Positions 48,036-53,399 of a DNA stretch of 64,000 bases are shown one piece after another. This stretch comes from Vampirovibrio chlorellavorus (GTDB lineage Bacteria; Cyanobacteriota; Vampirovibrionia; Vampirovibrionales; Vampirovibrionaceae), in assembly GCA_001858525.1 (NCBI GenBank), contig LAPX01000004.1:186001-250000 (forward strand), in the 5' to 3' direction. Below the pieces are notes generated by a model that ran no database searches, was not told where the DNA came from, and saw only the letters and a list, made by a program, of their open reading frames with translations. Position numbers and translations under genes: made by a program. Within the stretch, counting starts at the first letter, position 1, and every line of letters starts with the position of its first letter.

Positions 48036-49454
48036 GTGATGTATAACTTTCTTCCCCACACCGAGGCGGAACGTCAGTTGATGCTGACCAAAATCGGGGT
48101 GAAGAATATCGACGCCCTGTTCAGTGACATCCCGGCCTCCCTACGCCAGAATATGCATTACTCGGTGTTACCCAAGCAGGGCTTGCCCGAAGCGGAGTTA
48201 CAGGCCGAGTTACAAGCCTTGGCACGCCAGAACAAAGGCACAGAGCTCACCTGCTTCCTAGGAGGCGGGGCCTATAATCGGTTTATCCCCATGGCCGTGA
48301 ATACCATTGCCAGCCGTTCCGAGTTTTACACCGCCTACACACCGTACCAGCCGGAAATCGCCCAAGGTACCCTGCAAGTCACCTACGAGTTCCAGACCAT
48401 GATATGCGAATTGACCGGCCTGGATGTAGCCAATGCCTCGGTCTACGATGGGGCCTCGGCAGTGACTGAAGCAGCCTTTATGGCCATGCGAACCACCCGC
48501 CGTAATCGTATTCTAATCGCCAACTCGGTCAATCCAGACTATCGCAAAGTACTGGAAACCTACGCCAACGGGCTGGGCGAGGTAACCGTGGAGACCTTTG
48601 ATCCGCTGAAGCCCGGGGAAACCTTGAGCCCCAATCACCCCCAGGCCAAGCAAAGCGCCTGTGTCATTGTTCAAGTCCCCAACTACTGGGGTGGGCTGGA
48701 AGAAACCCAGATCATTCGACAGTTTTGCGAAGCCTCTGGCGCCCTCTTCATCGTGTCCGCAGAACCGGTTTCCCTGGGACTGCTCAAAGCGCCCGGCAGC
48801 TATGGCGCCGACATTGTCACCGGCGATATCCAACCCTTGGGCAATCACCTGTCTTTCGGCGGCCCGTACGGTGGCTACATTGCCACCAAAAACAAGTATG
48901 TGCGGCAATTACCGGGACGGCTGGTGGGCAAAACCACCGATCGCCACGGCAAGCAATGCTATACGCTCACCCTGCAAACCCGGGAGCAACACATCCGGCG
49001 AGAGAAGGCCACTAGCAACATCTGTACCAATCAGGCCCTGAACGTACTCAAGGCAACCGTTTATCTGACCCTGGTAGGGCCAAACGGCCTGAAGCATCTG
49101 GCCAATCTGTCGTTGCAACGCACCCACGCCCTGGCCAGCCAGTTGCGCAAACTGCCCGGTGTCACCTTGTATCAGGCGGGTCAGCCGTTTTTTGCCGAAG
49201 TGGCCCTGCGTTTCCCGGTGCCGGTGGCCCCCTTACTCAAGCACCTGGAGCAGCAAGGTATTCTGGGCGGCATTGCCCTGGAGCGTTTTTACCCAGACGC
49301 CAAAAACTGCCTGCTGATTGCCTGCACCGAAATGACCCTCCCCAACGAGATGGACCGCTATGTGGAAGCGGTGCGGGAGTTTCTCAAGCTGAATGCCCCA
49401 CCCGGCACCCCACAACCCGCTGAGATTCTGCAACAAATGGAGGCCACCTGCTAA
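48036..49454 (+). CDS. gcvPA: glycine decarboxylase P-protein subunit 1
   Basis: 472 residues, GTG (or the next codon, ATG). It is the N-terminal half of the split PLP-dependent P protein: FLGGGAYNRFIPMAVN, FYTAYTPYQPEIAQGTLQ, FQTMICELTGLDVANASVYDGASA, NPDYRKVLETY and QPLGNHLSFGGPYGGYIATK. It forms an alpha2-beta2 enzyme with GcvPB that decarboxylates glycine and loads GcvH. The split form is common in Firmicutes and several other lineages, whereas most Cyanobacteria have a fused P protein. Confidence 0.96.
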   Translation: MMYNFLPHTEAERQLMLTKIGVKNIDALFSDIPASLRQNMHYSVLPKQGLPEAELQAELQALARQNKGTELTCFLGGGAYNRFIPMAVNTIASRSEFYTAYTPYQPEIAQGTLQVTYEFQTMICELTGLDVANASVYDGASAVTEAAFMAMRTTRRNRILIANSVNPDYRKVLETYANGLGEVTVETFDPLKPGETLSPNHPQAKQSACVIVQVPNYWGGLEETQIIRQFCEASGALFIVSAEPVSLGLLKAPGSYGADIVTGDIQPLGNHLSFGGPYGGYIATKNKYVRQLPGRLVGKTTDRHGKQCYTLTLQTREQHIRREKATSNICTNQALNVLKATVYLTLVGPNGLKHLANLSLQRTHALASQLRKLPGVTLYQAGQPFFAEVALRFPVPVAPLLKHLEQQGILGGIALERFYPDAKNCLLIACTEMTLPNEMDRYVEAVREFLKLNAPPGTPQPAEILQQMEATC

Positions 49455-50947
49455 TGAACGCCCCCCTGTTGAACACACCTGTATTGGAACCGTCCATTTT
49501 TGAACTCTCCCACGTGGGGGCCCAAGGGGTGAGCCTGCCAGCGGTGGGCGTTGAGGAAAACCCCCTGGAATCCTTGATTCCCCCAGATTTTTTGCGAGAA
49601 GCCGCCCCTCGCCTGCCAGAAATTTCCCAAATGGATGCAGTGCGGCACTTCTTACGCCTGTCTCAGCTGAATCATTGTATTGATAAAGAGTTTTACCCCC
49701 TGGGCTCCTGCACCATGAAGTACAACCCCAAGGTGTGCGACTACTACGGCATGCTGGACGGATTGACCCGCCTGCACCCCATGACCCCGGCCCATTTGAG
49801 CCAAGGGGCTTTAAAAATCATCTACACCTTGCAACAGTATTTGGCCGATATTACCGGCTTTGACGCGGTCAGCCTGCAACAAGCCGCCGGGGCCCAAGGG
49901 GAACTGGTGGGCATTATGATGATCAAGGCTCACTTTGCCCATATGGGAGACACCCAGCGCACCGAGGTCATCGTCCCCGACTCTGCCCACGGCACCAATC
50001 CAGCCTCTGCCGCCATGTGTGGCTATAAAATCGTGGAAATCAAATCCGGGGCCAATGGTCTGGTAGATTTGGCTCGCCTTAAAGCGGCGCTTTCTCATAA
50101 GACTGCCGCTGTGATGTTGACCAACCCCAGTACCGTGGGATTATTCGAGAAAGATATTCTGGAAATTACCCGTTTGGTGCACGAAGTGGGCGCCTTTATG
50201 TACTATGACGGCGCCAACCTGAACGCGGTCATGGGGCAAGCCAAACCGGCCCAAATGGGCTTTGATGTCATGCACATCAACACCCACAAAACCTTTGCCA
50301 CTCCGCACGGAGGCGGAGGCCCTGGCTGTGGTCCGGTGGCCGTTACCAAAACCCTGGCCCCTTACCTGCCTGCCCCCATCGCCGATTTTGACGGGCAGCA
50401 ATACTTCCTGAACGAAGATAGGCCCTTATCGGTCGGTAAAGTGAAGGCGTTTTACGGCAATTTCGAGATGATGGCCCGGGCCCTGACTTACATTCAAGCT
50501 TACGGGGCGGAAGGCCTGTCTCAGGTCAGCCAAGATGCCGTATTGAACGCCAACTACCTAAAAGCCTGCCTGCAAGAGGACTATCAAGTGGCTTTTGATC
50601 AGGTGTGCAAGCACGAGTTTATTTTGACCAACGCCAAGCAAAAAGTGCATGATTCGCACCTGAATACCATGGCCATCGTCAAACGGTTGATGGACTATGG
50701 GTATCACCCCCCTACGGTGTACTTTCCGCTGATTGTGCATGAGGCCATGATGTTTGAGCCCACCGAAACCGAGTCCAAGGCCACGCTGGATCACTTTGTA
50801 GCGGCCATGAAAGCCATTGCCGAAGAATGTCGCACCCAACCGGAACTGGTGCTGAACGCCCCCCATACCACACCGGTCAGCAAAGTGGATGAAGTGGCCG
50901 CCGCCCGGAATCCTAATCTGAATTACTTCGGCCAGTCAGCTTCTTAG
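49454..50947 (+). CDS. gcvPB: glycine decarboxylase P-protein subunit 2 (PLP subunit)
   Basis: 497 residues. The PLP lysine is Lys279 in INTHKTFATPHGGGGPG. Other motifs are YPLGSCTMKYNPK, LQQAAGAQGELVGI, HGTNPASAAMCG, MLTNPSTVGLFEKDI and YYDGANLNAVMG. It overlaps gcvPA by one base (TAATG), a coupled arrangement. Both P subunits are intact, so the cluster lacks only lipoamide dehydrogenase (L protein), which is usually shared and located elsewhere. Confidence 0.97.
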   Translation: MNAPLLNTPVLEPSIFELSHVGAQGVSLPAVGVEENPLESLIPPDFLREAAPRLPEISQMDAVRHFLRLSQLNHCIDKEFYPLGSCTMKYNPKVCDYYGMLDGLTRLHPMTPAHLSQGALKIIYTLQQYLADITGFDAVSLQQAAGAQGELVGIMMIKAHFAHMGDTQRTEVIVPDSAHGTNPASAAMCGYKIVEIKSGANGLVDLARLKAALSHKTAAVMLTNPSTVGLFEKDILEITRLVHEVGAFMYYDGANLNAVMGQAKPAQMGFDVMHINTHKTFATPHGGGGPGCGPVAVTKTLAPYLPAPIADFDGQQYFLNEDRPLSVGKVKAFYGNFEMMARALTYIQAYGAEGLSQVSQDAVLNANYLKACLQEDYQVAFDQVCKHEFILTNAKQKVHDSHLNTMAIVKRLMDYGYHPPTVYFPLIVHEAMMFEPTETESKATLDHFVAAMKAIAEECRTQPELVLNAPHTTPVSKVDEVAAARNPNLNYFGQSAS

Positions 50948-51037: not shown

Positions 51038-51715
51038 TTAATGGGATTCCAGCAAATTAAGGCGTTCAAACTGCTCGATGACCGCGTCATCCAGAAAACT
51101 ACCGGCCGTTTGTGGCAATGGCGGCAATAAGCCCAAAATTGGCACAGCCAAAAACGGCTCCAGCGCTTCCCGCAAACTATGCACAGCCGGATCGGGATCA
51201 TCGGCTCGCCAATTGGAAAATACCACGCCTTTCACCTCCAACCGTTGCGCTAGCAAGGCGTCCACGGTCAGCAAAGTATGGTTCATGGTTCCCAAATTGG
51301 GGCGAGCCACCACCGCCACGGGCAACTGCAACATGCGAGCCAGATCCAGCATCTCAAAGTGCGGGGCTACCGGCACCCGAACACCCCCAGCCCCTTCCAC
51401 CAGCACCACATCATAGCGGGACTGCAGCTCCTTGAACTGGGTCAATATTTGGCGCGGCTGAATGGTCCGTTCTGGATCCGCGGCATAAGGGGCCACCGGT
51501 GACGGAAAGCAGTACGTACAATACGTAGGCACGTCCGCACTGACCCAATACTTGACCTGTTCGGGATCTTCCGGGCAATTGGGATCAGGCGAGCCGGTTT
51601 GAATGGGCTTAAAAACGCAGAACGATTTACCCTCCCGGATTAGCAATGCCGCCAACCCAGCAGTCAGAACGGTTTTACCAACCCCTGTGTCCGTGCCGGT
51701 AATAAACAGAGACAT
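51038..51715 (-). CDS. bioD: dethiobiotin synthetase
   Basis: 225 residues. It closes the ureido ring from 7,8-diaminopelargonate, CO2 and ATP. Walker A GTDTGVGKTVLTAGLAAL, KPIQTGS, VEGAGGVRVPV (Glu-Gly-Ala-Gly-Gly, metal and phosphate binding), VVARPNLGTMNHTLLT and VVFSNW are the BioD set. It follows the BioU-like gene by 20 bases on the same strand, so the pair encodes two successive steps of biotin synthesis. Confidence 0.96.
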   Translation of the reverse strand: MSLFITGTDTGVGKTVLTAGLAALLIREGKSFCVFKPIQTGSPDPNCPEDPEQVKYWVSADVPTYCTYCFPSPVAPYAADPERTIQPRQILTQFKELQSRYDVVLVEGAGGVRVPVAPHFEMLDLARMLQLPVAVVARPNLGTMNHTLLTVDALLAQRLEVKGVVFSNWRADDPDPAVHSLREALEPFLAVPILGLLPPLPQTAGSFLDDAVIEQFERLNLLESH

Positions 51716-51735: not shown

Positions 51736-52755
51736 TTAAACGCTCAGGGCCATTTCCGCTTGCAGGGGTTGTGCTTGCGCACCCGGCACCCGGCTGGCAA
51801 AGCGGGGCATAATATCAGCGGAAGTAATCAAGCCGTAGAAACCACGCTGGTGCATTTCGGCAGCCCGCAACATAAAGCCCAACGCAGGGCCGCACACGTT
51901 GTCCACCATGGTGGCTTCATCGCTGACCACAAACTGATGACTGCCAACGGCACCACTCATGGTGCGGCCCGTCACCGTAACCGTGGTATTCACCGGCTTT
52001 TTGGCGTTGCGGGTATCAACCAAGCCACCCACACGCACCCGATCCCGAGGGCAAACGCCTGCCAGTTCAAGAATCACGTCGTCGGCGTGTTCCATGTCCA
52101 CCAGCTTCAGCAGACCATTGCGCACGCTCAACTCTTCAGAAATTTCCTCATCGCTCATGCAGGCTACCCGCTTGGCGTCAAAGCCTTCCAGGTGAATGAA
52201 ATCTTCGCGCACGGTGGCTTTATAGGCTTCCCAGTTGGCGATGCCAACCCCGAAGTGAATGTTCACATCCAGCACTTCCACGAAGGAATGAGCGGCCACG
52301 GCGGCCACGGTGGTCAAAAAGCCTGGGGTCGCACCCGCGCCGGTGACGTACAAAATACCTTGCTCACGCAATTCATCATGCAAATCAAATAAACGCTCCA
52401 CCGCTTCAGTGCGTTTCAGGGCGTCCACAAATACGCCTTTAAAGCCGGTTTCAGCCACAATGCGCTTTACGGTATCGGCAAAAAATTCCACCGGCAAATT
52501 GGGCAACGCCATAAACACAGCGTCAATTTCACCAGCATGGGCCTTCAGCAAGCTAATGATCGAGTCCGAATCGGAGTGAAGAGGTTGGCTTAATTCATAA
52601 GATTCGGTCAGGGACAAACCATTGGCGTTAAACGCAAACCCCTGGCTATCGGCCACGGCCACCAACTTGAAATCAGGGCGGTGGGGAATTAAACGGGCCA
52701 TTCCTTTGCCCAAACCACCAAAACCAAAAACGGCCACACGTACTGCCTGTTGCAT
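51736..52755 (-). CDS. bioU: BioU-like (S)-8-amino-7-oxononanoate-modifying enzyme
   Basis: 339 residues. N-terminal Rossmann fold VAVFGFGGLGKGMARLI with VADSQGFAF. Lys114 in VFVDALKRTEAV corresponds in position to the sacrificial lysine of cyanobacterial BioU, an enzyme that donates its own lysine amine to KAPA in place of BioA. GAGATPGFLTTVAAVAA, FGVGIANWEAYKAT, MEHADDVILELAGVC and GGLVDTRNAKKP agree with BioU as I remember it. The general annotation would be saccharopine or homoserine dehydrogenase-like. The bioD gene directly downstream, and no bioA in view, support the assignment. Confidence 0.8.
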   Translation of the reverse strand: MQQAVRVAVFGFGGLGKGMARLIPHRPDFKLVAVADSQGFAFNANGLSLTESYELSQPLHSDSDSIISLLKAHAGEIDAVFMALPNLPVEFFADTVKRIVAETGFKGVFVDALKRTEAVERLFDLHDELREQGILYVTGAGATPGFLTTVAAVAAHSFVEVLDVNIHFGVGIANWEAYKATVREDFIHLEGFDAKRVACMSDEEISEELSVRNGLLKLVDMEHADDVILELAGVCPRDRVRVGGLVDTRNAKKPVNTTVTVTGRTMSGAVGSHQFVVSDEATMVDNVCGPALGFMLRAAEMHQRGFYGLITSADIMPRFASRVPGAQAQPLQAEMALSV

Positions 52756-52862: not shown

Positions 52863-53399
52863 CTACAGCGCCCCCGAAGCCCCTTGCAAGACTCGCAAAC
52901 GACCCACCTGATTGTAGTAGCATACCGCCAAAGCAAGGCCATCCGCGGCATCATCCGGTGTGGGCTTTTTGTCCAGCTTCAGCAGTTGAATCAAAGCCTC
53001 CTGCACCTCAGATTTCTCAGACTTCCCGTACCCGGTAACCGCCTGCTTCACCTGCATGGGGGTATATTCATAAACCGGCAAGTTAAAGCGATGGGTCAAC
53101 ATCAGGATGACCCCCCGTGCCTGGGCCACCGGTATAATGGTGGTGTTGTTCCGAAAGTAGAACAAGCGCTCAATCGACACCACATCGGGCTGAAGCTGCT
53201 CCATAACATGGGTCAGATCATCGTGAATTTCTTGCAGACGGGCCCCATCCGACTTATCTTTGGTGGTGGCAATGATTCCCCATTGGCAAGGGCCGAACTC
53301 CTCTCCCACCCAACCTGCGGACTGATTGGTGTCCCGAACGGTTTCCACCAGGCCAAAGCCCACTCTGCCTAATCCCGGATCAATGCCTAAAATTCTCAT
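52863..53399 (-). CDS. ruvC: Holliday junction endonuclease RuvC
   Basis: 178 residues. Catalytic acids are in LGIDPGLGRVGFGLV (Asp7), VVSIERLFYFRNN (Glu), and KPTPDDAADGLALAVCY (two Asp near residues 140-150). QVKQAVTGYGKSEKSEVQ is the DNA-binding basic segment. It resolves recombination junctions with RuvAB, whose genes are not nearby. Between it and lnt there are 32 bases; the two genes diverge. Confidence 0.96.
   Translation of the reverse strand: MRILGIDPGLGRVGFGLVETVRDTNQSAGWVGEEFGPCQWGIIATTKDKSDGARLQEIHDDLTHVMEQLQPDVVSIERLFYFRNNTTIIPVAQARGVILMLTHRFNLPVYEYTPMQVKQAVTGYGKSEKSEVQEALIQLLKLDKKPTPDDAADGLALAVCYYNQVGRLRVLQGASGAL

Follow-up and report, generated by a model that had tools for sequence, protein, structure and literature searches.

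A predicted BioU encoded next to bioD in non-photosynthetic Vampirovibrio chlorellavorus, with relatives in Omnitrophota and haloarchaea

We analysed a window of 64,000 nucleotides of Vampirovibrio chlorellavorus DNA, in which a gene for a protein of 339 amino acids is followed directly by bioD on the same strand (Table 1), the pairing that the initial annotation had proposed. The upstream neighbour, ruvC, lies outside the biotin pathway and, apart from bioD, no extra biotin-related partner gene adjoins the locus. Convergent with the pair are gcvPA and gcvPB, which encode a split glycine decarboxylase P protein.

Table 1. Coordinates of the genes, codons and loci discussed in the text (positions without a prefix are those of the window; C23 is the contig that carries bioU).
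Feature	Location	Strand	Basis or remark
bioU (339 aa)	51736..52755	(-)	Predicted 'suicide' enzyme, 8-amino-7-oxononanoate to DAPA-carbamate
AAA codon, predicted sacrificial lysine K114 (within DALKRT)	52414..52416	(-)	Codon read; alignment
CAC codon, predicted active-site H223 (within MEHADD)	52087..52089	(-)	Codon read; alignment
bioD, dethiobiotin synthase	51038..51715	(-)	20 bp downstream of bioU; TIGR00347, 148 bits, cut-off 83.3; the genome's only bioD match
ruvC	52863..53399	(-)	107 bp before bioU; NF000711, 196 bits, over cut-off
gcvPA and gcvPB	48036-50947	(+)	
bioB	C23:35980-36882		Over cut-off
bioF	C14:91078-92151		Over cut-off
Probable kbl	C23:571309		
bioU-bioF-bioD, Omnitrophota	L092:4001-6937		Genes between checked by family
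bioU-bioF-bioD, Omnitrophota	L100:3974-7102		Genes between checked by family
Biotin gene cluster with bioA, genus G301	L138:3379-8188		
Haloarchaeal BioU homologue	L130:4992-6020		Between bioB and bioF
Haloarchaeal BioU homologue	L131:4992-6020		Between bioB and bioF
Haloarchaeal BioU homologue	L132:4992-6059		Between bioB and bioF
Haloarchaeal BioU homologue	L133:3501-4571		Between bioB and bioF
Haloarchaeal BioU homologue	L134:3501-4553		Between bioB and bioF

When the product was searched against all PDB chains, the sole matches at E <= 0.001 were chains of Slr0355, the BioU of Synechocystis sp. PCC 6803, with ~49% identity over residues 5-320 (E 9e-101). The homology is full-length, and the window protein has a C-terminal tail ~20 residues longer than that of Slr0355, predicted with low confidence. 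Among NCBIfam families, NF047886 (BioU) matched with 383 bits (E 8.5e-115), short of its curated cut-off of 600 bits, and no other family came near; no Pfam family scored above threshold. BioA, the SAM-dependent aminotransferase that forms 7,8-diaminopelargonate (DAPA), serves the same pathway step as BioU and is an unrelated PLP enzyme. As the initial annotation also held, the window protein has none of the features of BioA, and it does not satisfy the BioA family TIGR00508 (class-III PLP aminotransferase). An AlphaFold model of the protein, built from 13 sequences (mean pLDDT 86.1, pTM 0.84), had as its five best PDB matches the five BioU structures in that database (6ir4, 6itd, 6k36, 6k37 and 6k38; E 6.6e-42 to 1.6e-39, TM 0.84-0.86). 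Behind them came D-amino-acid and diaminopimelate dehydrogenases, none better than E about 4e-13.

The lysine that had been singled out within the motif DALKRT is indeed there. Lys114 is its correct number in the window protein itself, the number used in the literature being Lys124, the residue consumed in BioU (PMC12915131, PMC9302846). In the alignment, the position of K114 holds lysine in 89 of 89 BioU sequences, and that of H223, equivalent to H233 of the Synechocystis enzyme, holds histidine in the same 89. Both were changed by mutation in structural work on that enzyme, as the PDB titles give K124A for 6itd and 6k37 and H233A for 6k38; the sequence of 6itd indeed has alanine at the position aligned with K114. 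The name of the enzyme invites confusion: in one review (PMC11089781) BioU denotes a pimeloyl-ACP methyl ester esterase, called 'BioUh' in PMC9302846.

We searched the genome of the window (3.03 Mb, 99.6% complete, 2.2% contaminated) for bioA, bioB, bioD and bioF. It has bioF, bioD and bioB, the last on the same contig as bioU, and a search with the bioA model gave nothing over the cut-off of 405 bits. The three matches to that model (255, 245 and 142 bits) were rejected as a hidden BioA, their best families being ornithine aminotransferase, an acetylornithine-type aminotransferase and HemL; the bioA elsewhere that would have spoken against BioU was thus not found in this genome. A promiscuous aminotransferase could in principle substitute for BioA here. 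A second BioF candidate was also rejected; it is probably Kbl, since it scores best with the BioF/Kbl acyltransferase family and the gene for L-threonine 3-dehydrogenase is two genes away. The presence of bioF, bioD and bioB without bioA is the same genome logic as that around Slr0355, from which the window differs in its host, a heterotrophic predator lineage, and in having bioD directly after bioU, an order not seen in the cyanobacterial flanks examined. We conclude with high confidence that this gene is a bioU orthologous to slr0355 of Synechocystis, and that it replaces bioA for the formation of DAPA in biotin synthesis.

Vampirovibrio (Melainabacteria/Vampirovibrionia, Vampirovibrionales) is non-photosynthetic, and its class is sister to Cyanobacteria. 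The expectation that BioU extends beyond photosynthetic Cyanobacteria is therefore borne out, although the extension here is to their sister class and not to a remote lineage. Among named records, the nearest relatives in a GTDB contig scan with the window protein were metagenome-assembled genomes of Vampirovibrio sp., at 97% protein identity, and of Vampirovibrio chlorellavorus, at 86%. Across 146 genomes of the class, 31 have BioU (350-443 bits for the full-length proteins), 73 have bioA over cut-off and none has both (hypergeometric 8e-12, a statistic that ignores shared ancestry). Cyanobacteria, likewise, carry either BioU or BioA (PMC12903740). Biotin pathways have been called present in Melainabacteria, with the enzyme of this step left unnamed in the relevant portions of those texts (PMC3787301, PMC4040986).

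In place of BioU, bioA is found in families f2, f44 and f46, in part of f43 and in two genera (G293 and G301) of the window's own family. The presence of a bioD-bioA cluster instead of bioU-bioD in these two genera suggests that the route was replaced within one family. The cluster of G301 comprises bioF, an open reading frame without family match, a bioC-like gene (below cut-off), bioD and bioA, and is divergent from bioB; judged by the positions of bioB, bioF, bioD and bioA, the layout in G293 (L139) is similar. In the three f43 genomes examined for it (G304, G308 and G316), BioU, bioA, bioB and bioD are all missing, a pattern like that of an auxotroph. One genome of the window's genus (G325, 95% complete) keeps bioB and bioF and has no match to bioU, bioD or ruvC; because the neighbour ruvC is missing as well, a gap in the assembly is a more probable cause than loss of bioU.

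Within the window's family, bioU and bioD were adjacent at all seven loci examined, and the same holds for part of f42 (pairing in G335 was judged from genome-wide matches to BioU and bioD). The adjacency was not seen in the examined flanks of f41, f3, f45 and Cyanobacteria (about 0.3-4 kb in the latter). On this distribution the pairing is a local arrangement, which provides useful context and does not define the enzyme.

The fold of BioU is common to diaminopimelate, lysine and amine dehydrogenases, and the window protein scores below the curated BioU cut-off. It might, then, be homologous to BioU and yet have diverged into a different NAD(P)-dependent dehydrogenase, acting for example on an amino acid or amine, with DAPA made by another aminotransferase. 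We consider this very improbable, as both the catalytic lysine and the catalytic histidine are kept, bioD is adjacent in a pairing conserved in the family, the genome has no recognisable bioA, and bioA and BioU are mutually exclusive across the class.

If the window protein works as the Synechocystis enzyme does, the epsilon-amino group of K114 would condense with the C7 ketone of 8-amino-7-oxononanoate, and reduction by NAD(P)H would give a BioU-DAPA conjugate. CO2 would then carboxylate the conjugate, and oxidation of the lysine-side bond by NAD(P)+ would release DAPA-carbamate. BioU would lose the amino group of K114 and so is proposed to act once. The adjacent BioD would presumably take over the DAPA-carbamate and close the ureido ring, and BioB would insert sulphur. 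We infer this single-turnover chemistry by homology. In the literature cited here, single turnover is reported for the cyanobacterial enzyme only (PMC12915131, PMC9302846), so a BioU-like protein turning over many times, with its lysine restored or with the amino group drawn from free lysine or ammonia, might be imagined; it is the least probable of the readings, given the identity of both mutated residues and the lack of a further biotin-related gene next to bioU.

Scanning GTDB contigs with the window protein also revealed BioU in Candidatus Omnitrophota, a phylum in which 17 of 384 genomes carry it. These proteins (L092-L100, L109-L125) are 41-47% identical to the window protein and keep both catalytic residues, usually in the motif DVLKRT. 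The window has bioD directly after bioU, whereas the order in Omnitrophota is bioU-bioF-bioD, as confirmed for two loci (Table 1), and bioD lies about 1.2-1.4 kb downstream of bioU in most of the others; bioB is directly upstream of bioU in at least three genomes (G415, G589 and G601). None of the eight BioU-bearing Omnitrophota genomes tested has bioA over cut-off, and bioB is over cut-off in 16 of 20 tested.

A plasmid search gave BioU homologues in seven haloarchaeal records, from Haloferax larsenii, Natronococcus, Natrinema and Haladaptatus. They are 39-42% identical to the window protein, with the catalytic lysine (in the motif DVLKRS) and histidine kept, and the three scanned with the BioU model scored 315-329 bits. 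In all five records read, the plasmid order is bioB-bioU-bioF-bioD, again unlike that of the window, and the BioU gene is annotated as 'transcriptional regulator' or 'hypothetical protein'. A literature search on BioU, which did not extend to the original description of the enzyme, returned no paper for Vampirovibrionia, Omnitrophota or haloarchaea. That description is reportedly by Sakaki et al. in 2020, and the haloarchaeal homologues may have been noted earlier; part of the widened range may already be known.

A well-supported tree of BioU sequences gave one clade each for Cyanobacteria, Vampirovibrionia, Omnitrophota and haloarchaea. The window protein grouped with BioU; its failure to do so would have counted against the initial annotation. 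Rooted on haloarchaea, a root that is an assumption, Cyanobacteria and Vampirovibrionia are sisters (branch 98/93). The tree fits vertical descent inside Cyanobacteriota and carries no direction for transfer between phyla. The window BioU adds a member to a known enzyme family, the taxonomic range of which is widened. Beyond this, we lean, with some reserve, towards a broader reading, in which the single-use BioU route, as found in Cyanobacteria, Vampirovibrionia, Omnitrophota and haloarchaea, is a widespread and largely unannotated alternative to BioA in two domains, Bacteria and Archaea. On this reading, photosynthetic and non-photosynthetic Cyanobacteriota probably inherited it from their common ancestor, and exchanges between it and bioA took place more than once.

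The cut-off of NF047886 bears on how such genes are named. All members tested from Vampirovibrionia, Omnitrophota and haloarchaea miss 600 bits, as do two intact cyanobacterial BioU proteins (G085, 570 bits; G241, 553 bits). The cut-off looks tuned to photosynthetic Cyanobacteria, and is a naming threshold rather than a biological feature; a lower one would name the excluded members. As it stands, automatic annotation would leave the window gene unnamed. The label 'saccharopine dehydrogenase-like', under which the initial annotation expected the gene to be hidden, was not returned by our searches.

Where bioU is annotated as hypothetical or as a transcriptional regulator, a genome can wrongly seem auxotrophic at the bioA step, and biotin pathways in Vampirovibrionia, Omnitrophota and haloarchaea need re-reading. 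BioU costs one protein molecule per biotin precursor, a strategy that the literature cited here treats for cyanobacteria only. Its occurrence in a heterotrophic predator lineage, Omnitrophota and haloarchaea, in every case with the same two catalytic residues and often near biotin genes, suggests a greater age or mobility than has been assumed. Diverse natural variants of BioU are now on hand to ask why single turnover is tolerated.
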